Below, piece after piece: positions 19,114 to 56,581 of a stretch of 64,000 nucleotides of DNA (position 1 is its first letter; every line of letters begins with the position of its first letter). Made by a program: the position numbers and the translations under genes. The notes under the pieces are model-generated. The model worked only from the letters and a program-made list of their open reading frames with translations. It was not told the DNA's origin and did not search any database. The stretch is from positions 682,001-746,000 of the forward strand of contig NZ_JALKAS010000001.1 of the NCBI RefSeq assembly GCF_023015695.1, in the 5' to 3' direction. Origin of the DNA: Jannaschia sp. S6380 (GTDB lineage: Bacteria > Pseudomonadota > Alphaproteobacteria > Rhodobacterales > Rhodobacteraceae).

Positions 19114-20055
19114 ATGAACAGTCTTGGTCTCGCACCCTCACTGATAAGTAACAGTGCCGAGCCGCTGCGATGGCTTTACGTCTCGCGGCGCTTCAAGGCA
19201 CTTCAGGCAAATCTCGCCCTTCAGGCCGCCACCATCGACGATGCAAACACCAAGGCTCGGGGAGTCATCAAGACACTGAACCGCAATTTCAGGGGCGAGA
19301 GTATTGTCGGACATTATGTGGTGGCGGGGTCTTGGGGAAAGAACACGGCAATTCATCCGCCAACCGACATCGATCTGTGTTTCATCCTTCCAGTCGAAGT
19401 CTATCACCGTTTCAACGCCTACAGCGGCAACAAGCAGTCGCAGCTGCTGAACCATGTTAAGGATGTTCTGACCACGACCTATTCACAGACCGCCATCCGA
19501 CAGGATGGACAGGTCGTCGTGGTCGGCTTCAACAGCATCACGATCGAGGTTGTTCCTTCGTTCATAGCCGCAGATCGCGGTCTGATAACCTGCGATACGA
19601 ACAACGGCGGACGCTGGAAGCAGGTCGATCCACTGGCCGAGATCGGCGTTCTCGATCAATCTGACAACTCGCTGCGGGGCAACCACCGCAAGCTGGTACG
19701 AATATTCAAGCAGTGGAAGCGGCACTGCAACGTGCCGATCAAGTCCTTCCACCTTGAACAGCTAATCGGCGAAGCCCTGCCCCGTATGACTTGGGGCAGT
19801 CATGACGAGTTCTGGTTCGACTGGGTCGTGCGGGATGTCTTCGCGCACATGATTGCGCGCGCGGGCGGCGGATTCTCTATGCCGGGCGGCATCAATGAAT
19901 GGATCGATCTCGGCGATGCGTGGAAGTCAAAGGCAGAGAGCGCACATCAGTGCATGCTCAAGGCGTGCGAGTATGAGCGCGAGAATTTGAACCTTTTGGC
20001 GGGTAGTGAATGGCAGAAGATATTCGGAACAGTGATCCCCGAAATGGTGATCTGA
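19114..20055 (+). CDS. CD-NTase-type nucleotidyltransferase (SMODS), CBASS-like
   Basis: A 313-residue nucleotidyltransferase. The active site is GSWGKNTAIHPPTDIDLCF at about residues 71-89 (Gly-Ser, then Asp-x-Asp), with a third acidic residue in SITIEVVPSF near residue 150. This is the layout of SMODS/CD-NTase enzymes, which make cyclic oligonucleotide signals after phage infection. Its C-terminus overlaps the start of a SLATT membrane protein by 46 nt. A CD-NTase with a SLATT partner is a known predicted CBASS-like pair, in which the nucleotide opens a membrane effector. No ubiquitin-like or HORMA accessory genes are present, so this would be a minimal two-gene form. Codon use is AT-richer than the ICE backbone. 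Confidence 0.85.
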   Translation: MNSLGLAPSLISNSAEPLRWLYVSRRFKALQANLALQAATIDDANTKARGVIKTLNRNFRGESIVGHYVVAGSWGKNTAIHPPTDIDLCFILPVEVYHRFNAYSGNKQSQLLNHVKDVLTTTYSQTAIRQDGQVVVVGFNSITIEVVPSFIAADRGLITCDTNNGGRWKQVDPLAEIGVLDQSDNSLRGNHRKLVRIFKQWKRHCNVPIKSFHLEQLIGEALPRMTWGSHDEFWFDWVVRDVFAHMIARAGGGFSMPGGINEWIDLGDAWKSKAESAHQCMLKACEYERENLNLLAGSEWQKIFGTVIPEMVI

Positions 20056-20555
20056 AGGCGGCGCATAGGGCGCTTGTGAAGGAATGCCGTGAACAAGCGC
20101 GCAACACGCTTTACACGTCCACGAGCTTCTTCATCTGGCTGCGCATCCTGAAGATCGCGCGAGCCGTATTGTGGGTTTTCGCAGCAGCCTCGGGCGCAGC
20201 GGCTGCGAGCACGGTGCTATCATCGCGGGAGGATATGGAGATTGTGATCGCGGGATTGGCCTTGCTGGCCGTGATCCTGCCAGGCGCAACCAAGGCGCTG
20301 AACCTCGACGATGCCATCAAGGCCTATGCCGAAAAGGCAGGGGCTTTCAAAAACGCCGAAGGCGCTCTGCGCCGCACGGCCAACGTGTGGTCGAACAAGC
20401 CATACGATGAATTCGAGAAGGAGGCCAAGTCAGCGCTGTCCCAACTGGACGAAGCTCGTAAAGGCTCACTGACACCGCCCGAGTGGTGCTTCAAGGCGGC
20501 GCAGCGCAAAGTGAAATCCGGCGACTACGACCCGGACGAAGAAAGGCACGGTTGA
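20010..20555 (+). CDS. SLATT-domain two-span membrane effector
   Basis: A 181-residue protein with two transmembrane helices (around ILKIARAVLWVFAAASGAAA and EIVIAGLALLAVILPGATKA), then a long helical C-terminus (AYAEKAGAFKNAEGALRRTA). This is the SLATT arrangement: two spans followed by a soluble helix. SLATT proteins are predicted pore-forming effectors driven by nucleotide-sensing partners. The start lies within the last codons of the CD-NTase gene, so the two are translationally coupled. Membrane permeabilisation on infection is inferred. Confidence 0.82.
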   Translation: MAEDIRNSDPRNGDLKAAHRALVKECREQARNTLYTSTSFFIWLRILKIARAVLWVFAAASGAAAASTVLSSREDMEIVIAGLALLAVILPGATKALNLDDAIKAYAEKAGAFKNAEGALRRTANVWSNKPYDEFEKEAKSALSQLDEARKGSLTPPEWCFKAAQRKVKSGDYDPDEERHG

Positions 20556-26519: not shown

Positions 26520-28277
26520 ATGACCCGGCGCGACGATGACCTGCGCATCCGCCCCGGGCGTATCCGCGACGGCGGCAGGACCTCGAAGCATTCGACACGC
26601 TTCGTCAACGAGGTGATGCGTGCCGCGCGGAAATCCGGACATACCGGCTATCGTATCGGCGCGGGCAGCACGCGTTTCGGCAACACCTCTTTCGGGCGCG
26701 GACGGTTTGTCCGAACCGCCAACGGTCTGACCCGTACCTCCCGGCGCGTCGTCGTGAAGGCCCGCGTCGTGCGCCACCAGGGCAAGCGCTTTCGCTCCGC
26801 GCCGATGGCCAAGCACCTCGGCTACCTGCAGCGCGACGGCGTCGGCCAGGACGGGCGCGACGCCGACTTGTTTGGGCCTGAAAGCAATGATCTCGACCGG
26901 GGCGGCTTTGCGGCGCGCTGCGAAGACGACCGGCATCATTTCCGATTCATCATCTCGCCGGAAGACGCGGGCGACCTCGAGGATCTGCGTGCCTTCACCC
27001 GGGATCTGATGGCCCGTGCCGAACGGGATCTCGGCACAAGATTGGACTGGGTCGCCGTCGATCACTGGAACACCGACAATCCGCATGTCCACATTCTGGT
27101 GCGCGGCAAAGTCGACGATGGGCGCGATCTCGTCATCTCACGCGATTACATCAGCCGGGGGTTTCGCGCGCGCGCAGAAGACCTCGTACAACTGGAACTG
27201 GGCCCCCGCAGCGAGCGCGAGATTTCCCAAGCCCTGGAAACGCAGGTCACGGCGGAGCGCTGGACCGATCTAGATCGCGGCCTGCGATCCCTGGCGGATG
27301 ATCATGCCGGCACCGCCGACCTGCGCCGCGGCACGCCGGCGCCCCGCGATCCGGAACTGCGCCGCTTGATGATCGGCCGCGCCCAGACACTGGAGAGGCT
27401 CGGGCTGGCCGAACAAATCGCCCCTGCCGTCTGGGAGTTGAAACCGAATGCCGAAGAGACTCTGCGCGAGCTTGGGATGCGCGGCGACATCATCAAACGA
27501 ATGCACCGCGCCATGGGCGCCGACCGTAATCGCGCAGCGGGTGATTTCGCCATCGAAGGCACGCCCATCGCGCCGATCCTCGGGCGGCTTGTGGAACGCG
27601 GCTTTCATGACGACCACGCCGGTAGTGGCTACGCGATCATCGACGGAGTTGACGGTCGCGTACATCACCTACGCTTCCGGGATCTCGATGCGACCGGCGA
27701 CACGCCGCAAGGTGGCATTGTCGAAACCCGGCTCTGGACAGGGAAGACGGACGGGACACAGCAACTGTCGCTTGTCGGTCGTTCCGATCTGTCGCTGGCC
27801 GCCCAGATCGCGGCGGATGGCGCCACCTGGCTCGACCGCCTGCATCTTTCCCGAGACCGCGAACCGCTGAGCGGTGCCGGATTTGGCGCAGAGGTTCGCC
27901 AAGCATTGGAACGCCGCTCGGATCACCTTGTCGCCGAAGGCCTCGCCCGACGGCAAGGGCAGCGGGTCACCTTTGCCCGCGATCTGCTGGCCACCCTGCG
28001 CAACCGCGAACTGGACACCATCGCTCAAGACCTCAGCACGCAAACCGGCCTCCCCCGTTACAAACCGACCGAGGGCGAACCCGTCGCAGGGACGTTCCGG
28101 CAACGCCTCGATCTCGCGTCTGGCCGCTTCGCCATGATCGACGATGGGCTCGGATTCTCGCTCGTCCCTTGGACCCCGCAACTCGAACGTCATCTCGGCC
28201 AGGCCGTCACAGGCACGATGACGCCCGGCGGCGGGATCGATTGGAGCCTCGGGCGCAAGCGCGGGCTGAGCCTTTGA
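26520..28277 (+). CDS. rlxS: Relaxase (VirD2/RlxS-like, DUF3363)
   Basis: A 585-residue relaxase. The N-terminal nicking domain has HHFRFIISPEDAGDLED and the metal-binding HxH in NTDNPHVHILVRGKVDD; the C-terminal half is the DUF3363 region. It nicks oriT, stays bound to the 5' end and pilots the strand into the recipient. The catalytic Tyr is not assigned with certainty (a Tyr lies in MAKHLGYLQRDGVG). No strong ribosome-binding site precedes the ATG, but it is the family-like start. It is followed 17 nt later by the coupling protein. Confidence 0.88.
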   Translation: MTRRDDDLRIRPGRIRDGGRTSKHSTRFVNEVMRAARKSGHTGYRIGAGSTRFGNTSFGRGRFVRTANGLTRTSRRVVVKARVVRHQGKRFRSAPMAKHLGYLQRDGVGQDGRDADLFGPESNDLDRGGFAARCEDDRHHFRFIISPEDAGDLEDLRAFTRDLMARAERDLGTRLDWVAVDHWNTDNPHVHILVRGKVDDGRDLVISRDYISRGFRARAEDLVQLELGPRSEREISQALETQVTAERWTDLDRGLRSLADDHAGTADLRRGTPAPRDPELRRLMIGRAQTLERLGLAEQIAPAVWELKPNAEETLRELGMRGDIIKRMHRAMGADRNRAAGDFAIEGTPIAPILGRLVERGFHDDHAGSGYAIIDGVDGRVHHLRFRDLDATGDTPQGGIVETRLWTGKTDGTQQLSLVGRSDLSLAAQIAADGATWLDRLHLSRDREPLSGAGFGAEVRQALERRSDHLVAEGLARRQGQRVTFARDLLATLRNRELDTIAQDLSTQTGLPRYKPTEGEPVAGTFRQRLDLASGRFAMIDDGLGFSLVPWTPQLERHLGQAVTGTMTPGGGIDWSLGRKRGLSL

Positions 28278-28294
28278 GCAGAAAGGACATCACC

Positions 28295-30289
28295 ATGAGC
28301 CGTCAGGACACGTCATCGGCCACCAAGATCCTCTGGGGCCAGATCCTCATCGTCAGCATCGTGGCGCTGATCTTCGTCTGGGCAGCGACGCAATGGGTCG
28401 CGTTTCGTCTCGGGTTCCAACCCCAGCTTGGCGCGCCTCTCACCGCCCTCTTCGGCCTGCCGATCTACCGCCCGTGGCAGGTCTTCACTTGGTGGTACTG
28501 GTACGACGCCTACGCGCCCCGCGTCTTCATGGAAGGAGCCGCAATCGCCGGCGCAGGCGGGATCGCCGCCATTGCCGTCGCGATCTTGCTGTCGGTCCTG
28601 CGGGCGCGCGAGGCGAGCGACGTGACAACCTATGGCTCGGCCAGATGGGCAAGCCCCAAGGATATCACCGCCGCCGGGCTGTTCGCAGACGACGGGGTCG
28701 TACTGGGCCGTCTCGACAAGCGCTACCTCCGGCATGATGGTCCGGAACACGTGCTATGCTTCGCGCCCACCCGCTCCGGTAAGGGCGTCGGCCTGGTGAT
28801 CCCGAGCCTGCTGACCTGGCCAGGCTCCGCGATTGTCCACGACATCAAGGGCGAGAACTGGCAACTGACGTCCGGATGCCGGGCGCGGTTCGGGCGTGTC
28901 CTGCTGTTCGATCCGACCAATGCGGCCAGCGCCGCCTACAATCCGCTGCTCGAGGTCCGCCGCGGCGAGCGCGAGGTGCGGGACGTGCAGAACATCGCGG
29001 ATATCCTCGTCGATCCCGAAGGCCAGCTCGAGCGGCGCAACCATTGGGAGAAGACCAGCCACTCCCTTCTGGTCGGCGCGATCCTGCATGTTCTCTATGC
29101 CGAGAAGGGCAAGACACTGGCAGGCGTCGCCGCCTTCCTGTCAGATCCTCGGCGTCCCATCGCCGCCACACTGACTGCAATGATGCGGACCGCCCATCTC
29201 GGAGATCGCCCGCATCCTGTTGTCGCCCAGGCCGCTCGCGAGCTGCTGAACAAATCCGAGAACGAACGCTCCGGCGTCCTGTCCACCGCCATGTCTTTCC
29301 TCAGTCTCTACCGCGACCCCGTGATCGCCGCCGTGACCCGGCGCTGCGACTGGCGGATCGACGATCTGGTCTCAGATGCGCGGCCGCTCACCCTCTACCT
29401 CGTGGTGCCGCCATCGGACATTTCCCGCACCAAACCGCTGGTCCGGCTGATCCTGAACCAGATCGGCCGCCGCCTGACGGAAGAATTGCACAACACCTAC
29501 CGCAAGCACCGCCTTCTGTTCATGCTCGACGAGTTCCCCGCCCTCGGCCGTCTCGACTTCTTTGAAAGCCAACTGGCCTTCATGGCGGGCTACGGTCTCA
29601 AGGCCTTCCTGATCGCCCAGTCGCTGAACCAGATCGAAAAGGCCTATGGCCAGAACAACGCCATCTTGGACAACTGCCATGTCCGCGTCGCCTTCGCGAC
29701 CAATGACGAGCGCACGGCGAAGCGCCTGTCCGACGCCCTCGGCACCACGACCGAACTGCGGGCGATGAAGAACTATGCCGGCCATCGGCTGTCACCCTGG
29801 CTCGGGCATCTGATGGTCTCGCGCCAGGAAACCGCCCGCGCCTTGCTGACCCCCGGCGAGATCATGCAGCTGCCATCTGACGACGAAATCATCCTCGTGT
29901 CGGGCGCGGCCCCGATCCGGGCCCAAAAAGTGCGGTATTTCCGCGACGCGCAACTGACGGCAAGGATCCACAAGCCGCCTGTCGTCGAAGCACCTGCATT
30001 CGTCCGCCCCGTGGAAACCGATGATTGGAGCTGTCTTCAGCCAGTCGCACCGCCCCAAGAAACCGGCGTGAAAAAGCCCGCTGACGACGGGGATGGTGGC
30101 ATCCGACGAGAGCCTGAGATCCCCGCGCATGAAGACGTGGCCCCGGAACTCCCATTCCCGCGCGAGGAATTCGCGGCCCTCGAAGACGAACCCGACGACG
30201 AGGCCCAACGCGCCCGCCCCATGCAGACCCGGTTCCGCACCGTCGCGCGTCAAGCGGCCCTCGATCCGGATGATGGCATCGATCTATGA
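28295..30289 (+). CDS. traG: Type IV coupling protein TraG/VirD4
   Basis: A 664-residue coupling ATPase. Two N-terminal spans (LIVSIVALIFVWAATQWVAF and AIAGAGGIAAIAVAILLSVL) anchor a cytoplasmic motor with Walker A FAPTRSGKGVGLVIPSLL near residue 160 and Walker B LLFMLDEFPALGRLDFF near residue 410. It links the relaxosome to the Trb channel. An acidic C-terminal tail of about 90 residues carries EPDDEAQRARP. AGAAAGGA precedes the ATG. Confidence 0.94.
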   Translation: MSRQDTSSATKILWGQILIVSIVALIFVWAATQWVAFRLGFQPQLGAPLTALFGLPIYRPWQVFTWWYWYDAYAPRVFMEGAAIAGAGGIAAIAVAILLSVLRAREASDVTTYGSARWASPKDITAAGLFADDGVVLGRLDKRYLRHDGPEHVLCFAPTRSGKGVGLVIPSLLTWPGSAIVHDIKGENWQLTSGCRARFGRVLLFDPTNAASAAYNPLLEVRRGEREVRDVQNIADILVDPEGQLERRNHWEKTSHSLLVGAILHVLYAEKGKTLAGVAAFLSDPRRPIAATLTAMMRTAHLGDRPHPVVAQAARELLNKSENERSGVLSTAMSFLSLYRDPVIAAVTRRCDWRIDDLVSDARPLTLYLVVPPSDISRTKPLVRLILNQIGRRLTEELHNTYRKHRLLFMLDEFPALGRLDFFESQLAFMAGYGLKAFLIAQSLNQIEKAYGQNNAILDNCHVRVAFATNDERTAKRLSDALGTTTELRAMKNYAGHRLSPWLGHLMVSRQETARALLTPGEIMQLPSDDEIILVSGAAPIRAQKVRYFRDAQLTARIHKPPVVEAPAFVRPVETDDWSCLQPVAPPQETGVKKPADDGDGGIRREPEIPAHEDVAPELPFPREEFAALEDEPDDEAQRARPMQTRFRTVARQAALDPDDGIDL

Positions 30290-30298
30290 GGTGACGAC

Positions 30299-30721
30299 AT
30301 GAAGAAAGCCAAGATCACCGCCTATGTCCACGCAGCCCTCTTCGATAAAATCGACGAACTGGCGGCACGGCGGCGCGTCCCCAAAACCCAAGTAGTCGAG
30401 GCGGCCCTGGCGTCGTTCCTCTCACCCGACAGCGCCGAACAGAGCGAGGCCGCGATCGTCCGCAGGCTGGACCGCCTGACAAGGTCGCTCGAGCGGCTGG
30501 AACGCGACCAAGAAATCACAACCGAAGCACTGGCGCTGTTTGTTCGCTTCTGGCTGACGACGACGCCCCCCCTGCCTGATGACACCTACTCAGCGGCCAA
30601 GGCGAAGGGGAAGGAGCGGTATGGAGGCTTCGTCGAGACGCTGGCGCGGCGGTTGGGCAAAGGCACCACACTGATGAAGGAACTTTCGCGTGACTTTCAT
30701 GGTTCAGTGGACTCGCAGTAG
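30299..30721 (+). CDS. CopG/ribbon-helix-helix regulator
   Basis: A 140-residue protein with a ribbon-helix-helix start (KKAKITAYVHAALFDKIDEL, then RRVPKTQVVEAALASFLSP) and a long helical tail with ALALFVRFWLTTTPPLPDDT. In this ICE family it normally lies directly between traG and trbB. Here a 6.6-kb cargo block separates it from trbB, so it marks the left border of that insertion. It appears full length. Confidence 0.88.
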   Translation: MKKAKITAYVHAALFDKIDELAARRRVPKTQVVEAALASFLSPDSAEQSEAAIVRRLDRLTRSLERLERDQEITTEALALFVRFWLTTTPPLPDDTYSAAKAKGKERYGGFVETLARRLGKGTTLMKELSRDFHGSVDSQ

Positions 30722-30937
30722 GCATCATTTACTGCTACCGAACGCATTCAGTTGTTGAACCGCGCATGGCCCCCAAATTTCTGACCCACCACAGTTGCGG
30801 TCAGAGCAACCTCTGCAAGGTTAGTGCTTGAGTGTCGTTGCTGGCCAGTCAATCTTGTGAGTCTAAACCCGAAGGGCTGTCACACTGTTAGAAACCGCAT
30901 CGTTTCTGGTTATCCATTTTGTGAAAAGGATCGTTAG

Positions 30938-33900
30938 TTGTCTAGTAAGGGAAAATTCTGCTGCTTTAGGTGTCCCAAGCCTGATTTCGACATCAAGGCC
31001 ATCGACGAATTATGCCCTGATTGCGGATACCCTTACAACTTTGAGCTTGAAAACCCACCAGAAAAGATCGGCGATTACAGGATTGTTCGTGCCCTTGGTC
31101 GAGGCTTCTATGGAGCGACATTTGTCGCTGAGCGTACGGGTCCGATCCCGCGCAAGTATGTCCTCAAAGTAGTTCCAAAAAAGAATTACCAGGAATTCAA
31201 AAAGGACTTTTCGGAAGAATGTCAAACCCACGCAAGAACTGCGGATGGAGCAGACTTCATTGTGGACATCGTCGATGCATTTGATGGCCAAGCAGTTTTC
31301 GGAGATTGTCATCTTGAGGTACACGTTGCGGTCTTGGAATATTTGAATGGCAAACCACTTCAAAGTTATCTTGATGGGAAATCGAAACTAAGCGCAGGCC
31401 TTGTAGCACAAATAGCATGCGATTTGGTCAAGGTTGTTCATGAGCTTCGAGCAAGAAGCCAGAACCACAACGACTTCCATGCTGGCAACATACTAGTCGA
31501 AGAATTAACACAAGAGCGCTACCGAGACGCAGCTCTTGAGCCGTCAGTACGCGCAGTTGCAATTGATCTTGGGTCGACTTCCGGAGATCGCCGTTCTGGA
31601 GACGGATACAAAAGCGACCTGCATTGGGTCGCAGAACATATCGATATCCTTTCAAGCAAATTGCTTCAGAATGTTGACGGCCATGTAGACGATCTCGATG
31701 CAAGAGTCGCGCTGGCATTAAAAGACGTTGCTGCATCGATTTCTGCACCAGTTGAAACCCAAAGAACGCCACCTGCTGAGGAAATAGTCAGAACCATTGA
31801 GCAAGCCTATTACCGATCTGGGGAACCTTGGAGGCCATGGCGCTCTCCTCTGGTTTTCAAGAACTTTGGCGAATCTTACAATGCGCAGACCTTGGCACCT
31901 TGGCACATTCCGCAGTTGTTAGTGGATCCAGAAGGCGATTGGCAAAGACGAGCAAGCTCGAAGGGACCTCTTATTGTCACTGGCATGCGGGGTTGCGGGA
32001 AAACTATGTTGCTACGATCTCTGCAGTTTCACGCGCGCGCAATGCAAAAGCGCGCTGAGACCGAAGAACAGGTGATCGCTAGACTAACAAGTGATGGCTT
32101 TGTTGGTTTGTTTGTCTCGGCTCAAATTTTGGTGGACCGTGGCACCTCAGTTGAGGCGCCCAACAACAAACTATTCGCCAGACTGTTATTGGCGTATGCC
32201 CTTGAGGCTTCGAGAGCTCTTGCCCATCTAAAAGATATCAAGGCAGAGCTCGTATCCGCGCAATCGCCTAAACTCATATCTAACGTGCTTTCTGACCTGC
32301 TCACTGGCTTTCAAATCGAAGTTCCTGGAAATTCCATTGAGCGGTTTGAGCACACTTTGGTTCGAAAGCTCTTGGAGGTAAGTAAGCCGGACAACTCATG
32401 CACTCTGGACATCCATCCATCAAAGTCTTTTCCTGCGCTTGCCAAAGCGATCGCTCAATGCTCGAAGATCTGGGCTGACTCTCGGATTCTGTTCCTTCTG
32501 GATGACGTGTCAACACGGTACCTACAGCCTGAAAAAATCGAGGAAATTTTCTCCGCAATAATCTTTCAAAATACAGATCAAGGTGCAGATTGCGCATTTA
32601 AGCTCACATCAGAAACTCAAACGATTTTTCTATCCCTGAAGTCATTAGGAGGAGTCGAATATGCTGCCCATTGGCGGGATTTTGAGACCTTCGATCTAGG
32701 TGCGGAAGTATACTCTCGACTTAAAGGAAAGGGAGGAAAAGCCTTTATTGGAGAAATTCTTTCTCAGAGATCCCAGTACTTCCCAAGTCACCCAAAGGTT
32801 CACCCAACAGTAGTGTTGGGCGATAAGAAGCTAAATAAACTTGCTCATGAAATCGTCGTAAACTCTGCTGCATCGGGCCGCAGGAAATCTGTCTATGCTG
32901 GAATCTCTGCTTTGAAAGCAGTTTGTGTCGGCGACATCGGCAGCGTAATTTCCATTTACGAGAGTATTCTACATAAAGGTCAGACTGCTCACCCCGTTTC
33001 TGCAGACGTCCAATCTCAGGTATTCCAAGATCACTGTGCACGCCATCTCTACGTTTTAGACCGAAGGGGGAGCGATCTAAAGAACACCGCAAAGTCTTTT
33101 GCGGAGGCATCGTACCGCGCATTGATAAACTCGCATCGAAAAGGCGAGACTAGAGGCCTTCGGCAATACACATCTATTTACGTAAACGCTTCTGCTGAGG
33201 AAGCAGGTACCCAGAATGAGCGACTGCGTGAATTGGTTGATGCAGGTGTTTTTGTATTTCATGGTGGAACACCTAGAAGCAAAACTGAGCACTCGGATCC
33301 AGTACAGCAGTTCAAACTTGTCTTTCGGAAGCTCTATGGTCTCGCGGACTTCATCCCTTTGGCTGATCGAGACCGGTTTGAGTTGACTGGAAAGGACCTG
33401 TTCGAGTGGCTTTCAAATCCCCAAAAGGGGCCGGACCTCCTAAACAGAAACCTTGGTACCGAGATTGATGATGAATATGAGACGGACGAAGGTGAAACAT
33501 CAGTTATAGAGCCAAGAACCCTTGAGACAGACCAACCCGAGTTCGACCTTGCAGTTCCAACGATTCAATCTCAGGCAGTCACGAAGAAGCATTACCTTGA
33601 TGTCCCGAAGATCTACGAGTTGTCAGACAAGGAAGTAGATAACCTTCAGATAGATGAAATACTGCTTGGCCTGGGCTTCGAAGAGTCGTGCGAGAAATCT
33701 GCGAGTAACTGTTTCGAAAGACTAAACCCGAAAACAGCTAAGTTGATTGAGTACAACCTTTCCGGCCGTGCGGACGCCATCAGAAAAACTGTGCTAGGTC
33801 GCCTAAGCGATGTGGAAATACGGAAGGCAGATGCGAAATCCTTTTTTGAGAAAGGAGCCGATCAAATCTGCAGGCTGGTCGATATTTCTGGACTTGCCAA

Positions 33901-34558
33901 GCCGATAATCTACCGGAGCGTAAAGGAAGCCCTACAGTTGGAAGGGTTCGTATATCTGGCGTTCACTGAGCCAGAAGTGACCTCCCCTAAGGACGAAGAT
34001 CTAGCCAAGATACTAAATGCTCAAGAACAGCAAGAGTCTGTTGTCGACAGTCTGCGTCAGATCGTCGGCAGTGAGTTTCCCCCGTATCATTCGGTTGAGG
34101 TCGACAGCATGGAATCCGATGCCACTCGTAGTCGTGCACTTTTGGCCTTTTCGAGTGCATCTCATGAAAGGCTAGTGCATTTAGTTTCGGAAAATAATTA
34201 CAATCATGCGGACCTAGTAACTAGTACCGCCGATAGTTCGCATGCCAAGATTGCTGCGATGTTAGCCAAAGCGGCGGCCAGAGAAGCGGAATCAAGCGAG
34301 ATTCTCGAGGTCGACCTTATGAATCCTCAGCACATTCTTAAAACGATCGAGCAGTCCTACACGCAAAAGTACCTTGATAGCGGTATGAACTTCGAAATTG
34401 GGCTAACAGGAGGAAAGCTGGATACGGTTGCAAGTGCCGCCTTTTGCTCTCGTTATCCAGTAAACAAAGTCTGGTACGTAAGGCCAAATAAATTCGATCC
34501 CGACAAGTTTTCGCGGGGCGCGAAGGCAACTCGGTACTTCAAAATTTCCGAGGAATAG
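30938..34558 (+). CDS. Zinc ribbon/protein kinase/P-loop ATPase/CARF-like multidomain protein
   Basis: A 1206-residue protein, very probably a defence or signalling sensor. A zinc ribbon (C9xxC12 and C26xxC29) comes first. A kinase-like domain follows, with GRGFYGATFVAER (residues 54-66), K77 in YVLKVVPK, the catalytic loop HNDFHAGNILV (about 177-187) and VAIDLGS (about 207). Next is a P-loop ATPase with Walker A GMRGCGKTMLLRSL at about 349 and Walker B RILFLLDDVS at about 515. The end (residues about 1065-1206) looks like a Rossmann-type CARF/HFX_2341-like ligand domain with IGLTGGKLDTVASAAF and KVWYVRPNKF. It starts with TTG at 30938 after AAAAGGA. I know no named family with this architecture. 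AT-rich codons contrast with flanking genes. Confidence 0.7.
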   Translation: MSSKGKFCCFRCPKPDFDIKAIDELCPDCGYPYNFELENPPEKIGDYRIVRALGRGFYGATFVAERTGPIPRKYVLKVVPKKNYQEFKKDFSEECQTHARTADGADFIVDIVDAFDGQAVFGDCHLEVHVAVLEYLNGKPLQSYLDGKSKLSAGLVAQIACDLVKVVHELRARSQNHNDFHAGNILVEELTQERYRDAALEPSVRAVAIDLGSTSGDRRSGDGYKSDLHWVAEHIDILSSKLLQNVDGHVDDLDARVALALKDVAASISAPVETQRTPPAEEIVRTIEQAYYRSGEPWRPWRSPLVFKNFGESYNAQTLAPWHIPQLLVDPEGDWQRRASSKGPLIVTGMRGCGKTMLLRSLQFHARAMQKRAETEEQVIARLTSDGFVGLFVSAQILVDRGTSVEAPNNKLFARLLLAYALEASRALAHLKDIKAELVSAQSPKLISNVLSDLLTGFQIEVPGNSIERFEHTLVRKLLEVSKPDNSCTLDIHPSKSFPALAKAIAQCSKIWADSRILFLLDDVSTRYLQPEKIEEIFSAIIFQNTDQGADCAFKLTSETQTIFLSLKSLGGVEYAAHWRDFETFDLGAEVYSRLKGKGGKAFIGEILSQRSQYFPSHPKVHPTVVLGDKKLNKLAHEIVVNSAASGRRKSVYAGISALKAVCVGDIGSVISIYESILHKGQTAHPVSADVQSQVFQDHCARHLYVLDRRGSDLKNTAKSFAEASYRALINSHRKGETRGLRQYTSIYVNASAEEAGTQNERLRELVDAGVFVFHGGTPRSKTEHSDPVQQFKLVFRKLYGLADFIPLADRDRFELTGKDLFEWLSNPQKGPDLLNRNLGTEIDDEYETDEGETSVIEPRTLETDQPEFDLAVPTIQSQAVTKKHYLDVPKIYELSDKEVDNLQIDEILLGLGFEESCEKSASNCFERLNPKTAKLIEYNLSGRADAIRKTVLGRLSDVEIRKADAKSFFEKGADQICRLVDISGLAKPIIYRSVKEALQLEGFVYLAFTEPEVTSPKDEDLAKILNAQEQQESVVDSLRQIVGSEFPPYHSVEVDSMESDATRSRALLAFSSASHERLVHLVSENNYNHADLVTSTADSSHAKIAAMLAKAAAREAESSEILEVDLMNPQHILKTIEQSYTQKYLDSGMNFEIGLTGGKLDTVASAAFCSRYPVNKVWYVRPNKFDPDKFSRGAKATRYFKISEE

Positions 34559-34576
34559 TGCTCTGAGGTAGATGCA

Positions 34577-35071
34577 ATGGCAAATTCTCCATATCTAAAA
34601 GACGATGCGCGACTGGGCGACGTTATTGCTGCGATTCAGGCTATGAGCATCTATAAATTTTATAAGCTTGACTTTGCTGGATGGTCTGACCGCATTTCCG
34701 GAGACCCAGGAAAATGCGAACACTGGAAGCAAGTCTTCGTAGAGCACCCTGAGTTCTTCCGATTGGATGCGGCTAGAGAAAAGGCATCGCTAGTAGCGAG
34801 GCGTCAGCATCCTAAGAACTACGATGTTGATGCCAGAAAACAGATTGAGACCGATGAGTTTCGTTCTATGGATGCTTCAAAGAAGGGCCGAATCTCTAGA
34901 AGTCCATTGTCACACGGGGAAATGGCGTCTTTGATCCAAACGGCCGTGGAGCTTCATTCTAGAGCCATGGACCAGGCGAAGGACAGGCGTTGGTGGCTGC
35001 CCGTTCTGACCGCCTTCATTGGCGCGGCTTCGGGTATCGCAGGCACACTGTTGGGAGCGCTGCTCACCTAG
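34577..35071 (+). CDS. Small C-terminally membrane-anchored partner protein
   Basis: A 164-residue protein with a soluble N-terminal domain (LGDVIAAIQAMSIYKFYKLD, CEHWKQVFVEHPEFFRLD) and a C-terminal hydrophobic segment RRWWLPVLTAFIGAASGIAG followed by TLLGALLT. It starts 18 nt after the kinase-ATPase stop with a TGAGGTAG ribosome-binding site, so the two are co-expressed. A tail-anchored partner next to a signalling ATPase could be its membrane effector or a sensor; this is inference. No firm family is recognised. Confidence 0.7.
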   Translation: MANSPYLKDDARLGDVIAAIQAMSIYKFYKLDFAGWSDRISGDPGKCEHWKQVFVEHPEFFRLDAAREKASLVARRQHPKNYDVDARKQIETDEFRSMDASKKGRISRSPLSHGEMASLIQTAVELHSRAMDQAKDRRWWLPVLTAFIGAASGIAGTLLGALLT

Positions 35072-35250
35072 CTGCCGCCGCTTGACGGATTGTTGCAAAC
35101 GGTCACGTCTGACCCTCCGATGCAATTTGTTATTGTTCCTGCAACCACGTCGTGAGAACATAAAGAGAACTTTTGATTTGGGAGAAGCCACATCTAGTGT
35201 CTTCCATGCCTATCTCTACAAGAGTATGGTTTAGGAAAATGAGGCGATCG

Positions 35251-36222
35251 ATGCAGTCGAATCTTACATCTGTTGAACTTTGTGCCGGTGCAGGCGGGCA
35301 GGCTCTTGGCATGGAACGTGCCGGATTCAGTCATCAAGCGCTTGTTGAGATCGACAATCATTGTCGCAACACATTGTTGTTCAATCGTCCGTCGTGGAAC
35401 GTCGTAGACGGCGAACAGGCCGATCTAGCTAGTTTTGATGGCCGCCCTTACAGGGGCGTCGATGTGTTGGCTGGCGGTCTGCCGTGCCCGCCTTTTTCCG
35501 TGGCTGGCAAGCAGCTTGGCCACGCAGATGAGCGCAACCTTTTTCCCGATGCTTTGCGGCTGATCGATGAAATTAGACCACAAGCCGTCATGATTGAGAA
35601 CGTACGTGGATTTCTTGACGCGGTGTTTGCAGATTACCGACAAAAGCTTAAACGACAACTGAGCAAGCTAGGTTATCAAGCTGACTGGCATCTCTTCAAC
35701 GCATCTGACTTTGGTGTGCCGCAGCTGCGACCACGTGTAGTCATCGTCGCCATGCGAAAAGACTTGTCGGAACATTTCTCTTGGCCAGTTTCATCTAGCA
35801 CCTCACCTGCAACAGTAGGTGAAACTCTACGTGATCTCATGGCAGAGAATGGCTGGCGAGGCGCCACGCGTTGGAGTAAGCAGGCCGATGATATTGCCCC
35901 GACCATTGTTGGAGGCTCAAAGAAACATGGCGGTCCTGATCTTGGACCAACACGAGCAAAGCGAGCTTGGGCCACGCTCGGAGTTGACGGCATGGGTATC
36001 GCTAATGAAGCCCCAGAACGAGACTTTGTAGGCATGCCCCGATTAACGGTGCCCATGGTCGCAAGATTGCAAGGCTTCACCGATGATTGGCGCTTTTCCG
36101 GCAAGAAAACACCCGCCTATCGGCAGGTGGGTAACGCGTTCCCACCACCAGTAGCGGAAGCTGTAGCTGTCAAAATACGCGAAGCGATTTTAGCGCGCAA
36201 GTCCGTTCGGGTTGTTGCCTAA
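35251..36222 (+). CDS. DNA (cytosine-5) methyltransferase of an NgoMIV-type system
   Basis: A 323-residue C5 methyltransferase. Motif I is ELCAGAGGQALGMERAGF, motif IV GGLPCPPFSVAGKQLG (catalytic Cys), motif VI MIENVRGFLDA, motif VIII GVPQLRPRVVIVAM, motif IX MVARLQGFTDDW and motif X RQVGNAFPPPVAEAVA. It protects host DNA from the endonuclease encoded next, with a one-base TAATG overlap. Of two in-frame ATGs, the one at 35251 has GAGGCG at good distance; 35239 is possible. By its partner, the target should be GCCGGC. Confidence 0.92.
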   Translation: MQSNLTSVELCAGAGGQALGMERAGFSHQALVEIDNHCRNTLLFNRPSWNVVDGEQADLASFDGRPYRGVDVLAGGLPCPPFSVAGKQLGHADERNLFPDALRLIDEIRPQAVMIENVRGFLDAVFADYRQKLKRQLSKLGYQADWHLFNASDFGVPQLRPRVVIVAMRKDLSEHFSWPVSSSTSPATVGETLRDLMAENGWRGATRWSKQADDIAPTIVGGSKKHGGPDLGPTRAKRAWATLGVDGMGIANEAPERDFVGMPRLTVPMVARLQGFTDDWRFSGKKTPAYRQVGNAFPPPVAEAVAVKIREAILARKSVRVVA

Positions 36223-37067
36223 TGAGCGTTGCATGGCTCACAAAAGCACGTCGTGAGTTCCATGCGACTCTTCTCGGCGGCATCTTAACCAAGAGCGCGG
36301 CAGGCGTCCCAAGTAATGCCGACAAAGCATCCAAACCCAGCAGAGAGATCGCCAGCTCTATTCTTGATCAGCTCGGACCAGCCACAACCGCACTAAAACT
36401 TCCTGGTCAGACAGCTGGCGCTGACTTTGAAAGTGTGTGCGCAAGTTTTGTGCGCGTTTGCTTTGAACGAATGCAGCATCTCCGCCCTGGCTTCTTCACT
36501 GTGACCAAAGGCGGCGGCATCGCAATGTTCGATCAGTATGCACACCTCGATGACCTTGAAGCAATCGCCAAAGCCAATCGAGAAATCGCCACAGCCATCG
36601 GCTCGGACTATTTGATCAAGCCTGACATTGTCGTAACAAGAGCACCCGAGTCAGATGAGGTCATCAATGCAAAAGGTGTATTGGTCGATACTGATACCGC
36701 GCGGCTTTCGAGTTTGCGTGCAGTCAATCAACCGCTTGAAATCCTCCATGCCTCAATTAGCTGCAAATGGACGTTGCGAAGTGACCGTGCGCAAAATGCC
36801 CGCTCTGAAGGTCTTAACTTAGTTCGGAATCGCAAAGGAAGGCTACCGCATATCGCAGTGATTACTGGAGAACCGACACCGGGGCGAGTGGCGTCTTTGG
36901 CCCTTGGAACGGGCGATATTGATTGCGTCTATCACTTTGCCCTTTATGAGCTTCGCAGTGCGCTGGTGGATCAGGGTCGCGATGAGACACTCGAACTCTT
37001 AGACACTATGATTGAAGGCAAACGCTTAAGAGACATCTCGGACTTGCCGCTCGATATGGTGACTTAA
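36222..37067 (+). CDS. NgoMIV-family type II restriction endonuclease
   Basis: A 281-residue endonuclease closely resembling NgoMIV, which cuts GCCGGC as a tetramer needing two sites. Conserved blocks are VPSNADKAS, LPGQTAGADFESVCASFV, GSDYLIKPDIVVTR (catalytic Asp), LHASISCKWTLRSDRAQN (Ser-x-Cys-Lys active site) and GLNLVRNRKGRLPHIAV. The end LRDISDLPLDMVT also matches. Length equals the family norm. It forms a restriction-modification pair with the preceding methyltransferase. Confidence 0.93.
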   Translation: MSVAWLTKARREFHATLLGGILTKSAAGVPSNADKASKPSREIASSILDQLGPATTALKLPGQTAGADFESVCASFVRVCFERMQHLRPGFFTVTKGGGIAMFDQYAHLDDLEAIAKANREIATAIGSDYLIKPDIVVTRAPESDEVINAKGVLVDTDTARLSSLRAVNQPLEILHASISCKWTLRSDRAQNARSEGLNLVRNRKGRLPHIAVITGEPTPGRVASLALGTGDIDCVYHFALYELRSALVDQGRDETLELLDTMIEGKRLRDISDLPLDMVT

Positions 37068-37300
37068 ACACTGCCTAAATGTCTTTGGAATTACGAGCTA
37101 TTTTCCTGTGTGGTTTGCGCCAACGCAGGAATGATCTTTACGTTACCAAAGTGTCCAAAGGCGGTGAGTGATCCCTGCTAGCGGCGTTTCGCAATATCCC
37201 TGCCTTCACGCGCCACACCCCTACTACGCCTTCACAGCTGTTGCCCGTAACCAAATAACGGTCTTCTTGATCGGTCTCGTGATCCATCGCGAGGCCAGTC

Positions 37301-38284
37301 ATGACCGTTACCCCTTTCAAAACCGAGACGTCTTCCCGCGGCGCACGCATGTTGCGCACGGCACTTGGGCCGGGCATCGCCGCCTGGCTCGAGGATGCTG
37401 GCGTCGTCGAGGTGATGCTGAACCCTGACGGGCGGCTCTGGGTTGACCGGCTGGCCGATGGGCTGAGCGACACAGGCGCGGTGCTGTCTCCCGCCGATGG
37501 CGAGCGCATCATCCGTCTTGTCGCCCATCACGTCGGGGCGGAGGTCCATCCCGCGGCCCCGCGTGTTTCGGCTGAATTGCCGGACACGGGCGAGCGCTTC
37601 GAGGGTTTGCTGCCCCCAGTGGTTTCTGCACCCACATTTGCCATTCGCAAGCCCGCCGTCGCGGTGTTCACCCTCGAGGACTATGTCGCAATGGGCATTC
37701 TCTCCTCAGATACGGCTGCGCAGTTGCGCGACGCGGTCACCAGCCGGGCCAATATTCTTGTCGCGGGCGGGACCTCCACAGGCAAGACGACCCTCACCAA
37801 TGCGCTGTTGGCGGAAGTTGCCAAAACCTCGGACCGCGTGGTCCTGATCGAGGACACGCGCGAACTGCAATGCCTGACCCCCAACCTCGTGGCCCTGCGC
37901 ACGAAAGACGGGGTCGCGACCCTGTCCCATCTCGTGCGCGCGTCGCTGCGGCTGCGGCCGGATCGTATCCCCATCGGCGAGGTGCGCGGCCCGGAAGCAC
38001 TGGACCTGCTGAAAGCCTGGGGCACCGGCCATCCGGGCGGGATCGGGACGATCCATGCAGGGTCCGCCATTGGCGCGCTGCGGCGGCTCGAACAGCTGAT
38101 CCAGGAAGCGGTTGTCACCGTCCCACGCGCGCTGATCGCAGAAACCATCGACCTGATCGCCGTTCTGTCCGGACGGGGGGCCGAGCGTCGCCTCTCCGAG
38201 TTGGCGCGTGTTACCGGCCTGACCGCCTCGGGCGATTACGCCCTCACCCCCCTTTTCCCACCAACACAAGGAAGCCATCCATGA
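37301..38284 (+). CDS. trbB: Conjugal transfer ATPase TrbB
   Basis: A 327-residue VirB11-type secretion ATPase with Walker [21 protein letters not shown] box [14 protein letters not shown] and the His/Walker B region [20 protein letters not shown]. It powers pilus assembly and transfer at the inner membrane. First gene of the trb operon here; the stop overlaps trbC by 4 nt. The 233 nt ahead of it have AT-rich sequence joining it to the cargo block. Confidence 0.94.
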
Positions 38285-38607
38285 CCCTTCTGCCATCATT
38301 TCGCACAGCCTTTGGCGCAACCGCGCTCGGCCTCGTCGTCTTCGCCCTGCCTGAGCCGGCGCTCGCCGCCGGGTCCGGCATGCCGTGGGAAGCCCCCTTG
38401 CAAACCATCCTCGAATCGATCGAAGGCCCGGTCGCCAAGATCGTCGCGGTGATCATCATCATCGTCACCGGGCTGACGCTCGCCTTCGGCGACAGTTCAG
38501 GAGGGTTCCGGCGTCTGGTGCAGATCGTCTTCGGCCTGTCCATCGCCTTCGCCGCCTCGAGCTTCTTTTTGTCCTTCTTCTCCTTCGGCGGCGGAGCACT
38601 GATCTGA
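38281..38607 (+). CDS. trbC: Conjugal pilin TrbC
   Basis: A 108-residue VirB2-like pilin precursor: signal peptide ending EPALAAGSGMPWE, then two hydrophobic helices (AKIVAVIIIIVTGLTLAFGD and VQIVFGLSIAFAASSFFLSF). It should be processed by TraF (25054-25581). It overlaps trbB by 4 nt and trbD by 1 nt. Confidence 0.93.
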   Translation: MTLLPSFRTAFGATALGLVVFALPEPALAAGSGMPWEAPLQTILESIEGPVAKIVAVIIIIVTGLTLAFGDSSGGFRRLVQIVFGLSIAFAASSFFLSFFSFGGGALI

Positions 38608-48677: not shown

Positions 48678-49460
48678 ATGGATTCTGGAAAGCGATCGAC
48701 ACTCGTAACACTCGGTGCGATTGTCGCGGGATACGCGGCTTTGCGCACAGTGCCGTCGCTTTTGCCTGAGAAACTGGAACTCGAGCCGCTCGATAACCCC
48801 GATGGCTTTCGGAAATACGTCGCGGGTGACACCTCAGGCGGTTTTGATCCCTTCGTAGGGCTAGGTACCCGCGAAAGCGATGCGGTCATCGCTCGAAAGG
48901 AGGCAGCGTTAGAGCGCGTGTCGAACAATCTATGTGACGCTCTCTACGGCGAACTGGGAACCAGTCCTGCAAGGGTGCCGATCGCGTCATTCTCAGACTA
49001 CTACTGCCCGTACTGCCGCATTCAGACGGAGCGGCTTGCGGAAATGACCAACGCGATGCCAAACGAGGTTGCAGTCGCATGGCACGAGCTTCCCTTGTTG
49101 GGTGATAGCTCGAATCTAGCTGCCAAAGCAGCCCTCGCGGCAAAGCGTCAGGGCGCGTATGTCACCTTTCACGAGAGACTGATGACAACGCCCTTCCAAG
49201 CAACGCCGGAGTATCTTTCGCGTCTCGCGGGCGATCTTAGAGTCGATGAAGAACGTTTGGTCGCGGACATGGAGAGTCCCGAAGTCGTGCGGGAGTTGGA
49301 AAACAGCTCAGCGCTTGCGCGTGTGTTCGCCTTTGTTGGAACGCCGGCGCTGGTCATTGGTCGTACGGTTGTTCAAGGGCAGATCAGCGACACAATGGTG
49401 CGAAAGATCATCGAACTGGAAAGAGAAGAGGGTTGGAACGCAGCGTGCGTCACAGTGTGA
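48678..49460 (+). CDS. DsbA-family thiol-disulfide oxidoreductase
   Basis: A 260-residue thioredoxin-fold protein. An N-terminal membrane anchor (LVTLGAIVAGYAALRTVPSL) leads to a periplasmic DsbA domain with active site FSDYYCPYCRIQTERL and cis-Pro region FVGTPALVIGRTVVQG. It introduces or shuffles disulfides. It heads a plus-strand run with a rhodanese and a ScsB-like reductase, which points to copper-stress repair of periplasmic thiols. Confidence 0.87.
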   Translation: MDSGKRSTLVTLGAIVAGYAALRTVPSLLPEKLELEPLDNPDGFRKYVAGDTSGGFDPFVGLGTRESDAVIARKEAALERVSNNLCDALYGELGTSPARVPIASFSDYYCPYCRIQTERLAEMTNAMPNEVAVAWHELPLLGDSSNLAAKAALAAKRQGAYVTFHERLMTTPFQATPEYLSRLAGDLRVDEERLVADMESPEVVRELENSSALARVFAFVGTPALVIGRTVVQGQISDTMVRKIIELEREEGWNAACVTV

Positions 49461-49511
49461 TCGATTTCAGTCACGGAGGCCGACAAGCGCGTGACGAGAA
49501 TTGGAGATACC

Positions 49512-49964
49512 ATGAATAGAAGACAGTTCTGCGCGCTCACCGCTGCAATGGTGTTGCCTGGTATCGCATGGGCTGCGACCCGCGAAATTTGGTCGGCACC
49601 AGAAGTTGCCGAGGCACTCGACGCGGAAGCAATAACTCTGCTGGATGTACGCACTCGTGCCGAATGGGCAGAGACGGGCCTTGCTAAGGGAGCCTGGCCG
49701 GTCAGCATGCACGAGCGAGGCTTTGAACAGCGGCTCTTTGCGGCACGTGATCTCGCTGCTGGACGGCCCGTCGCGCTGATCTGCGCCACTGGCGGTCGCA
49801 GTGCGCAGCTATTGGCAGCCCTCAAACGTGCCGGATATACCGGCTTTATCGATGTCTCCGAGGGCATGCTTGGCTCGCGCCGCGGTCCCGGTTGGATCGC
49901 GCGTGGTTTGCCGATCACCGATCTCGAAACGGCACTCGCAGCGATGCCGCAAGCGCTGCGCTGA
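49512..49964 (+). CDS. Periplasmic rhodanese-like sulfurtransferase
   Basis: A 150-residue protein with a signal peptide (MNRRQFCALTAAMVLPGIAW) and one rhodanese domain (AITLLDVRTRAEWAETGLAK, active-site Cys in LICATGGRSAQLLAAL). It may move sulfane sulfur or act in periplasmic thiol handling. It is directly followed by the ScsB-like gene, whose ATG comes immediately after its TGA stop. The ATG at 49512 gives the signal peptide at the right place. Confidence 0.87.
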   Translation: MNRRQFCALTAAMVLPGIAWAATREIWSAPEVAEALDAEAITLLDVRTRAEWAETGLAKGAWPVSMHERGFEQRLFAARDLAAGRPVALICATGGRSAQLLAALKRAGYTGFIDVSEGMLGSRRGPGWIARGLPITDLETALAAMPQALR

Positions 49965-52091
49965 ATGGCGGAAGAGGCGGTGACACCGCGAGTGAAATGG
50001 CTTGCTACGCGCGTCATGACCATATTCGCAGTGTGGGTTACGCTCGCACATCTGGACGTCGCGCAAGCCGCCGAGTCGAATGTTTTTGAAAACCCGGCGG
50101 TCGCCGCTCGCCTGATTTCAGCCGAGGATGGCATCACACCGGACGCATCCACCGTCTCTCTCGGACTGGTTCTCGAATATGGTGAAGGATGGAAAGGGTA
50201 TTGGAGAACGCCCGGCGAGGTAGGTCTGGCGCCAGAAGTTGACTGGCAAGATTCTTCCAATCTAGCTTCTGCCGAAATCCTGTGGCCTGCACCGGATCGC
50301 TTTGAGGCCTTCGGCATCGAGAACTTCGGGTATTCTGGCATAGTCGTCCTGCCGATCCGAACGACGCTGAAAGACCGTGGCAAGCCCTTGAAGCTTCGCG
50401 CCAGCGTGACGCTCCTGACATGTTCCGATGTCTGCGTCCCTCATGCCTTCGACCTGGCTCTGGATGTTCCGAGCGGCACTGGCATTGATCAAGTGTCTGC
50501 CGACGCAATCGCAACTTTCGTTGCGCGCGTTCCGGCGAACGCGGACGAAAGCGATATCAAGATCACGGCCGTGGCCCGTGACGAAAGGTCTTCTGCACTC
50601 GTTGTCACAGCCGAAAGCGACCGACCATTCGAGACCGTCGACGTCTTTCCCGAATTCGGGCCTCTGGTGACGTTCGGCAAGCCTGATATCCGGCTCAACC
50701 GCGATCGATCAGATTTATGGGCTCGCATTCCTCTGAACGCGTGGTCGGACGAGCATACAACGCCGTTCCTTACGGTGACAGATAGCGGACGGGCGGTCAC
50801 AGCTCCGGTGGTTTTGAGTACCGACGTCCCTGCCCCGCCCTATGAAAGAGCATCTTCAAGTACGAGCGCACTTCAGTTGGCAACGATCGCTGCGATCGCC
50901 TTTCTGGGAGGTCTGATCCTGAACGTGATGCCCTGTGTATTGCCTGTCCTGTCGATCAAGCTCGCTTCGGTTCTGAAAGCATCAGGCCAATCTCAACGGA
51001 TCATTCGGAACGGGTTTCTGTTTACCGCAATGGGTGTCCTGACATTCGTCTGGATGCTTGCGATGTTCGTTCTTGGCCTCAAATGGGTCGGCGTGTCGGT
51101 TGGCTGGGGTATCCAGTTCCAAAATCCCGTCTTCGTAGCACTGATGTTCATCGTGATTTCCATTTTTTCAGCCAACGTGCTCGGTTTGTTTGAGATTTCC
51201 CTGCCCTCTGGCATCCAGAATCGCCTCGGGGCGAACAGTACAGGTTCCGGGTATGCCGCTGATTTCGGCACTGGTCTGCTTGTCGCCGTTCTGGCAACCC
51301 CATGTTCTGCGCCGTTCCTTGGGACAGCGATCACTTTTGCCTTGGCAGGCAGCGCGACCGATGTGCTGTTCGTCTTCACCGCTCTCGGGATTGGACTGGC
51401 GTCGCCCTACCTGTTCATTGCGGCACGCCCCGCCCTAGTCGAGCGCTTGCCCCGCCCTGGCCGTTGGATGCTGCTCATCAAAGCCGGCCTCGGACTTCTC
51501 CTGGTGGCGACTGCCGGATGGCTGCTTTTCATACTTGTTGGGCTAACGGGATGGCCTGGCGCTGCGTTGGTCGCCGCCTGCACCACTGTTCTGATCCTAC
51601 TGCTCAAGACAGGTCGGCCACACGGAACTTCAAGGAGCAGTCTGATCGCTGCCAGTCTCATACTGCCCCTGATCTGGGTCGGCCTGTTCACGCATCAATC
51701 GAAGCCCGAAAATCCGACAGCGAACACCTACTGGCAGGCATTCGAGCCGCAGCAGATCGCAAGATATGTGTCAGAAGGCCAAACCGTGTTTGTGGATGTC
51801 ACGGCCGATTGGTGCCTGACCTGCAAGGCCAACAAAACGCTCGTCCTGGATCGCGGGCCGATTGCTGGCAGGTTGAGCGACGAGACGGTAATTGCCATGC
51901 AGGCCGACTGGACCCGACCGGATGACGAGATCGCCCGCTTCCTTGAACTCCACGGACGCTACGGCATTCCTTTCAATATCGTGTTCGGCCCAGCGGCGCC
52001 GTCCGGTGTGGTGCTGCCAGAAGTTCTGACGCAAGCAGTTGTCATTGATGCGCTGGCCGCTGCTTCAACACGAAAACCCGGAAACGAATGA
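49965..52091 (+). CDS. scsB: ScsB/DsbD-like membrane thiol reductase
   Basis: A 708-residue protein with three parts. The N-terminal periplasmic domain carries VTLLTCSDVCVPHAFDL. The DsbD-type membrane core contains ILNVMPCVLPVLSIKLASVL and GLLVAVLATPCSAPFLGTA, with about eight spans. The C-terminal thioredoxin domain has FVDVTADWCLTCKANKTLV. It carries electrons from cytoplasmic thioredoxin to periplasmic thiols. The N-terminal domain with CSDVC is that of ScsB-like suppressors of copper sensitivity, which fits the island. The ATG follows the rhodanese stop directly. Confidence 0.85.
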   Translation: MAEEAVTPRVKWLATRVMTIFAVWVTLAHLDVAQAAESNVFENPAVAARLISAEDGITPDASTVSLGLVLEYGEGWKGYWRTPGEVGLAPEVDWQDSSNLASAEILWPAPDRFEAFGIENFGYSGIVVLPIRTTLKDRGKPLKLRASVTLLTCSDVCVPHAFDLALDVPSGTGIDQVSADAIATFVARVPANADESDIKITAVARDERSSALVVTAESDRPFETVDVFPEFGPLVTFGKPDIRLNRDRSDLWARIPLNAWSDEHTTPFLTVTDSGRAVTAPVVLSTDVPAPPYERASSSTSALQLATIAAIAFLGGLILNVMPCVLPVLSIKLASVLKASGQSQRIIRNGFLFTAMGVLTFVWMLAMFVLGLKWVGVSVGWGIQFQNPVFVALMFIVISIFSANVLGLFEISLPSGIQNRLGANSTGSGYAADFGTGLLVAVLATPCSAPFLGTAITFALAGSATDVLFVFTALGIGLASPYLFIAARPALVERLPRPGRWMLLIKAGLGLLLVATAGWLLFILVGLTGWPGAALVAACTTVLILLLKTGRPHGTSRSSLIAASLILPLIWVGLFTHQSKPENPTANTYWQAFEPQQIARYVSEGQTVFVDVTADWCLTCKANKTLVLDRGPIAGRLSDETVIAMQADWTRPDDEIARFLELHGRYGIPFNIVFGPAAPSGVVLPEVLTQAVVIDALAAASTRKPGNE

Positions 52092-52096
52092 CGAGA

Positions 52097-52756
52097 CTAT
52101 TTCAGAACCAGGTTCGCTACTGAAGCGACAATCCTACCATCTGTGTCGTCGCTGTCGGCCGAGATGGCCAGACCAATCAGTGTACCAGGATCATCGCCGA
52201 ACGCTGCTCTGAAATCTCCTGCCAGATCCACGCTTTCCCGATGCTCCCCGGAGCCGCTTGTACGCAGGACTTTGGTACGCAGCCGTGGAGAATATGGGCT
52301 GGGCAAAATGGACCCGACTTCATGTGCCCCACCCCACACATAGATAAGAGCGCGGGCGGATTCTTCGCGCAAAATCCGCCTGGCGTTTCCACCAGAAAGT
52401 GCGTCGGCGCGGGTTTCATCCACAAAGACGAAATAAACTGACAGATTGCGATCGTCGCTCCCCTTGACCGTCAGATCCGTCGCAGTGACGCCCTCTTGCA
52501 CGCGCCACGCCCATCTGGCCTCAACAGCGTCTCGTTCAGATTGATCGACCGGCCGCCACAAGAGTGAAACTGTCCCATCGGAAATCACGTCCAGTTGTCG
52601 TCCTCGCTGGACGTAGTCGTTGGAAAATAGCCTTAAGAACCCCTGCTCTTTCCAGCTGCCGTCGAACTCCACGAGCGCTTCGGCAAACCCCAGCCCAGGT
52701 TGCAGCGCAAGCAACGCCGCGAAGATCGTATTTCTCGTATCAATCACGTTTTTCAC
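52097..52756 (-). CDS. DUF3047 secreted protein
   Basis: A 219-residue protein with a probable signal peptide (FAALLALQPGLGFAEALVEF) and the DUF3047 body with LSVYFVFVDETRADALSGGN and LIYVWGGAHEVGSILPSPYS. The function of DUF3047 is unknown; it occurs beside redox and respiration genes. The best start is GTG at 52756, overlapping the glutaredoxin-MauE stop as GTGA; the frame is open to 52870 but overlaps that gene. It is the last gene of the copper operon. Confidence 0.75.
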   Translation of the reverse strand: MKNVIDTRNTIFAALLALQPGLGFAEALVEFDGSWKEQGFLRLFSNDYVQRGRQLDVISDGTVSLLWRPVDQSERDAVEARWAWRVQEGVTATDLTVKGSDDRNLSVYFVFVDETRADALSGGNARRILREESARALIYVWGGAHEVGSILPSPYSPRLRTKVLRTSGSGEHRESVDLAGDFRAAFGDDPGTLIGLAISADSDDTDGRIVASVANLVLK

Positions 52757-53520: not shown

Positions 53521-53543
53521 GGTCAGCTCCTGTCGGTTTGACG

Positions 53544-54506: not shown

Positions 54507-54537
54507 GATGATCCTCCGGAGTAGTTTCCACAGAAAC

Positions 54538-54559: not shown

Positions 54560-54586
54560 CCGAATAATCAGGATTATCTATTCTTT

Positions 54587-56568: not shown

Positions 56569-56581
56569 GGGTACGAGTCTC

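Follow-up and report, generated by a model that had tools for sequence, protein, structure and literature searches.

Domain Organization of the Giant Protein

In a window of 64,000 nucleotides from Jannaschia sp. S6380 (contig NZ_JALKAS010000001.1, positions 682,001 to 746,000), a gene encoding a giant protein of 1206 amino acids was found at positions 30938..34558 of the window (TTG start), followed after a gap of 18 bp by a gene for a 164-amino-acid protein (34577..35071, ATG start). The giant protein comprises, in this order, a Zn ribbon, a protein kinase, an ORC-CDC6-like AAA ATPase and a tandem CARF region; all the features located below between 30299 and 38284 lie on the plus strand. Both open reading frames had been reported in a first-pass annotation, made from the sequence alone, which took the pair for a candidate defense system. 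The observation itself was confirmed and the overall interpretation was partly supported.

Relatives were collected by scanning a single genome for each species, which yielded 51 loci other than the window, spread over many bacterial phyla and some archaea. The family is rare, since it was present in 2 of the 385 genomes of a sample of the class (the genome of the window and one with a partial relative). Residue conservation was determined across 46 full-length members, i.e., 45 loci and the window.

The Zn-ribbon-like cysteines occupy residues 8–29 (30959..31024); C9 and C29 were each present in 45 of the 46 members and C26 in 44, followed by C12 (32/46) and C8 (31/46). The protein kinase domain extends over about residues 45–212 (31070..31573), with a Pfam Pkinase match at residues 47–189 (E 1e-7). 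Its residues E94, H177, D179, N184 and D210 were identical in all members, as was K77, the lysine that the first-pass annotation had singled out for mutation, and the glycine-loop residue G54 was variable (21/46). The ORC-CDC6-like ATPase core covers residues 309–524 (31862..32509; PF24389, E 1.2e-22) and contains the P-loop GMRGCGKT at 349–356, with Arg351 inside it, and a Walker B motif with D522-D523. Here, G349, R351, G354, K355, T356, D522, D523 and R527 were identical in 46/46. These results indicated that, at the level of sequence, both the kinase and the P-loop are intact, and the earlier assignment of a Zn ribbon, a kinase with an intact catalytic loop and a P-loop ATPase was borne out.

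The CARF Fold and Family Membership

The proposal that the C-terminus resembles CARF ligand sensors was upheld by an AlphaFold2 model of residues 886–1206 (pLDDT 92), which holds two Rossmann-like modules only. Its best structure matches were Can1, Csm6, Can2 and Cam1; the VIA-align alignment to Can1 (6sce) covered model residues 20–303, and the PADLOC Csx1/Csm6 profile gave a local match in the second module (4.6e-4). The model thus supported a CARF fold with two modules in one chain, in a Can1-like arrangement. The first module (about residues 886–1050, 33593..34087) carries GFE and D..GL.K motifs, and the second (about residues 1064–1206, 34127..34555) carries the LTGGK motif. Across the family, G913, E915, D982, G1158 and K1160 were identical in 46/46, T1157 in 44, G985 and K988 in 43 each and H1076 in 37. 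Hence, of the TGGK motif highlighted previously, the threonine, the first glycine and the lysine were conserved, but the third position was a glycine in just three of the 46 members.

The same architecture of Zn ribbon, kinase, AAA and CARF was described by Makarova et al. in 2014 (PMC4012209), where the definition of the family, CARF_STK_AAA, includes a Ser/Thr/Tyr kinase, an arginine in the P-loop and a winged helix-turn-helix fused with CARF. The giant protein has the same domain order and, likewise, an arginine (Arg351) within its P-loop. At the sequence and model level, it carries the Zn ribbon and kinase and the C-terminal CARF region, and the PADLOC profile PDLC01925 (CARF6--CARF_STK_AAA) matched it over its full length (residues 5–1205, 1767 bits). 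It is therefore a member of a family predicted in 2014 and already named, contrary to the earlier statement that no named system has this form.

Can1 is described as having two CARF domains within one polypeptide (PMC6981274), an arrangement shared by the giant protein. Nevertheless, Can1 ends in a PD-D/ExK nuclease, whereas the giant chain stops at its second CARF module, and no nuclease family was detected in it by the Pfam scan. Unlike Can1, Cam1, Can2, Csm6 and Card1, it joins CARF to a kinase and an ATPase and lacks a C-terminal nuclease domain; it also differs from Can1 and the other CARF sensors in residing in a genome without a Cas10 match. In one locus of the same class (L002), the open frame of a kinase-ATPase relative (858 amino acids) ends before the CARF region, so that there may also be versions of the kinase-ATPase part that lack the CARF sensor.

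The 164-Amino-Acid Protein Marks the Clade of the Window

The small protein has a single hydrophobic stretch, C-terminal and starting at about residue 141 (hydropathy 1.76), in agreement with its earlier description as tail-anchored. The predicted membrane anchor covers residues 139–163, approximately (34991..35065), and the model places a long helix at 113–163 after an N-terminal winged-helix-like domain, for which the fold matches were weak and tied. This predicted domain with a single transmembrane (TM) helix gave no support to the membrane attack suggested in the first-pass annotation.

The conserved pairing of the two genes, also proposed there, held within the clade of the window, where the small gene adjoined the giant gene in Salipiger and on a plasmid of Loktanella; outside this clade it failed, Salipiger being the only one of the 51 other loci with the pair. 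Therefore, the 164-amino-acid protein is a marker of this clade and not a general partner of the giant family. Its own family was also found without the giant protein and away from restriction–modification (R-M) genes. One relative, for instance, lies directly after DrmMI in a DISARM locus of Sinorhizobium meliloti, on a plasmid typed as conjugative (L055, 10001-10489).

The Restriction–Modification Pair and the Cargo Slot

Downstream of the small gene, a C5 cytosine DNA methyltransferase (35173..36222; PF00145, E 4.9e-66) adjoins an NgoMIV-type restriction endonuclease (36222..37067; PF09015, E 5.1e-109), the layout of a type II R-M system. Since the homology of the methylase begins at residue 31, its true start is probably the ATG at 35239 or 35251. 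It was 62–69% identical to the methylases beside the giant genes of Loktanella and Salipiger, in which the adjoining endonuclease is of the NaeI type. NgoMIV-type and NaeI enzymes share the recognition site GCCGGC. As in the R-M systems of these two types, a C5 methylase accompanies the endonuclease; here, however, the pair adjoins a kinase-CARF gene and a small gene.

The four genes sit within a series of conjugation genes. On the left, the slot is bordered by a CopG/RHH gene (30299..30721), which follows a type IV secretion system coupling protein (28169-30289), and on the right by a T2SSE-family ATPase, TrbB-like by position (37301..38284). Read from these flanking genes, the host element is conjugative. 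The GC content falls from about 62–66% in the neighboring kilobases (28–30 and 37–39 kb) to 47–49% at 31–35 kb, over the giant and small genes, and 53% at 35–37 kb, over the R-M pair. An R-M pair in an AT-rich cargo slot, as described originally, was thus recovered. Elsewhere in the window (48678-59122) there are DsbA-, rhodanese- and DsbD-like genes, a multicopper oxidase and a heavy-metal P-type ATPase.

The window and the plasmid of Loktanella salsilacus share a DNA block (30774..35074, 82.6% identity) made up of the two genes, giant and small, together with some 165 bp of upstream sequence. Outside this block, within 29501-38500, the Loktanella match was limited to 98 bp in the methylase. 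Consequently, in this lineage the giant and small genes are a two-gene unit common to the window and Loktanella, and the family of the adjoining restriction enzyme differs.

C5 Methylases and a Phosphorylase-Like Gene Accompany the Family

A C5 cytosine methylase was found in the examined flanks of 42 of the 51 loci, and within 2.5 kb in 36; it recurred across bacteria and archaea and was the commonest neighbor cluster of the giant family. These counts cover the C5 class only, so that they do not establish a specificity for C5. As background, 42 of 115 class-sample genomes had any C5 methylase match (69 matches in total). At this rate, and taking genomes to be 3 Mb in size, about 0.16 would be expected in the 806 kb of flanks, a comparison to be read as an order of magnitude because the two counts differ in profiles, cut-offs and taxa. 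Vsr-like genes (22/51) and GHKL-type ATPases (19/51) were also recurrent. In three loci (L003, L010, and L004), a GHKL ATPase of about 990 amino acids adjoins a Response_reg_2-type protein and a methylase, the Pfam assignment being made on the L003 protein only.

Furthermore, a gene of about 400 amino acids lies directly upstream of the giant gene, on the same strand, in 36 of the 51 loci (36 of the 50 with upstream sequence). In 35 of these 36, its end is no more than 13 bp from the point where the giant match starts (in 20 the two abut or overlap), and in L030 the distance is 98 bp. Two representatives had no Pfam match. An alignment of 24 of these proteins matched the pyrimidine-nucleoside phosphorylase 1brw over nearly its whole length (E 1.8e-43), which places them among the homologs of the pyrimidine-nucleoside and thymidine phosphorylases (1brw, 1azy). 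The positions aligned to Arg168, Ser183 and Lys187 of 1brw, which we take to be base contacts, were invariant in 24/24, as were those aligned to Ser83 and Thr92. In contrast to these phosphorylases, the positions aligned to Lys81 and Thr120 were replaced in 24/24 and that aligned to Ser110 in 22/24; these three are presumably phosphate contacts.

No phosphorylase-like gene adjoins the giant gene in the window. Thus, the window lineage differs from most CARF_STK_AAA relatives in lacking this upstream gene and having the winged-helix-like tail-anchored protein instead. When the genomes of the window and of the 15 loci lacking the gene were searched, a distant phosphorylase was detected in nine of the 16 (98–115 bits) and none in the other seven, compared with 497–544 bits for three positive controls. 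Two Sphingomonas loci (L008 and L021) have the giant gene and the phosphorylase-like partner near homologs of TraG, CopG, TrbB and TrbE of the window element, suggesting that conjugative elements of this type have carried the giant family on more than one occasion.

Candidate Sources of the Ligand

Because of the CARF fold, the ligand of the giant protein is expected to be a nucleotide or an oligonucleotide. In its own genome, rated 99.96% complete, no match to Csm1 or Cmr2 was detected (at E up to 1e-5 and 1e-10, respectively). Among the genomes of 50 relatives, Csm1 was above the cut-off in two, with weak matches below it in four more, and Cmr2 was found in one. A type III CRISPR system is therefore an unlikely source of the signal. 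SMODS cyclases were present in six of these 50 genomes and in that of the window. The cyclic-nucleotide system noted previously at 19 kb is indeed there, as a CBASS-like pair (19114-20555) in which the gene of a SMODS/CD-NTase cyclase of 313 amino acids overlaps that of a 181-amino-acid effector with two TM helices. The giant protein was considered as an effector of this pair and rejected, the cyclase being 11 kb away and overlapping its own effector gene.

Discussion

The repeated link of the giant family to cytosine methylases and to a phosphorylase-like enzyme, as seen in gene neighborhoods, points to a putative defense signaling system. We propose, at an even chance, that the giant protein is a ligand-gated kinase-ATPase signaling protein working alongside a C5-methylase R-M system. 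During infection, or when DNA breaks, a small nucleotide or oligonucleotide would be released or synthesized and would bind between the CARF modules of the pair; a change of state in the AAA core would follow, and the kinase would phosphorylate a target. Within the locus, the nearest candidate for this target, or for a membrane docking site, is the tail-anchored protein. In most relatives the phosphorylase-like gene stands in the place of the partner, and the protein it encodes may produce the ligand, bind it or eliminate it; in other conflict systems, the production of second messengers has been predicted for nucleoside phosphorylase domains (PMC7159879). Such signaling would provide a second defensive layer, or would control the R-M genes, once restriction alone fails. 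The findings named in the first-pass annotation as refuting a defense system were not obtained: in the clade of the window the giant gene does have the small gene beside it, R-M genes are strongly associated with the family, and the C-terminal region has a CARF fold.

Several observations weigh against this proposal. The ligand, the kinase target and the defense activity are inferred. In general, no ligand-making enzyme was found beside the giant family, Cas10 is nearly absent and the cyclase of the window is already paired with its own effector. The phosphorylase-like gene is not essential, since 14 of the 50 loci with upstream sequence lack it. In addition, no C5 methylase was present in the examined flank of nine of the 51 loci, including L021, L023 and L029 (10 kb on both sides), and the clustering with R-M genes may only reflect defense islands. 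This last point leads to a possible, though unlikely, alternative, in which the giant protein, together with its partner, acts as an independent abortive-infection system and is only co-located with R-M genes in defense islands. The nine loci favor it, as do the Vsr-like genes and GHKL-type ATPases, which recur as they would in such islands, and the constancy of the giant and small genes between the window and Loktanella in spite of their different restriction enzymes. Against it, the methylase recurs in bacteria and archaea as the commonest neighbor, mostly within 2.5 kb.

Control of R-M expression or activity by the giant protein and the membrane-bound winged-helix-like protein, with no killing response, is quite unlikely. 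The small gene lies directly upstream of the C5 methylase, in the same orientation, in the window, Loktanella and Salipiger, and its product models as a winged helix; moreover, regulators that combine CARF with AAA have been described near R-M genes for the RtcR-like family (PMC4012209). However, a 1206-amino-acid protein in which kinase and ATPase are both complete would be heavy for this role, the winged-helix matches were weak and tied, and members of the small family are also found at a distance from R-M genes. An accessory effector using the cyclic oligonucleotides of type III CRISPR or CBASS would suit the Can1-like tandem fold and the CD-NTase 11 kb upstream, but is highly improbable given the few Csm1, Cmr2 and SMODS matches and the cyclase's own effector.

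A more specific scheme can be put forward as a conjecture of low probability. The family would act as a methylation-linked guard, and the signal that it senses would be a nucleotide derived from a pyrimidine and connected with cytosine methylation or with the breakdown of DNA. The phosphorylase-like partner, with its base site kept and its phosphate site altered, would make or remove this signal, and in the window lineage a membrane-tethered winged-helix protein would have taken the place of this enzyme. The unit would follow the specificity of the methylase, with the restriction enzyme freely replaced.

In 2014, CARF_STK_AAA was presented as a small family for which kinase-mediated signaling was suggested, in a passage that names no partner or ligand (PMC4012209). 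The linkage to C5 methylases and to the phosphorylase-like gene now gives handles on the chemistry of the ligand, and the locus offers a candidate kinase target and a candidate coupling to R-M. If the proposal is true, the known sensors would be joined by a kinase that is under CARF control and lies outside CRISPR.
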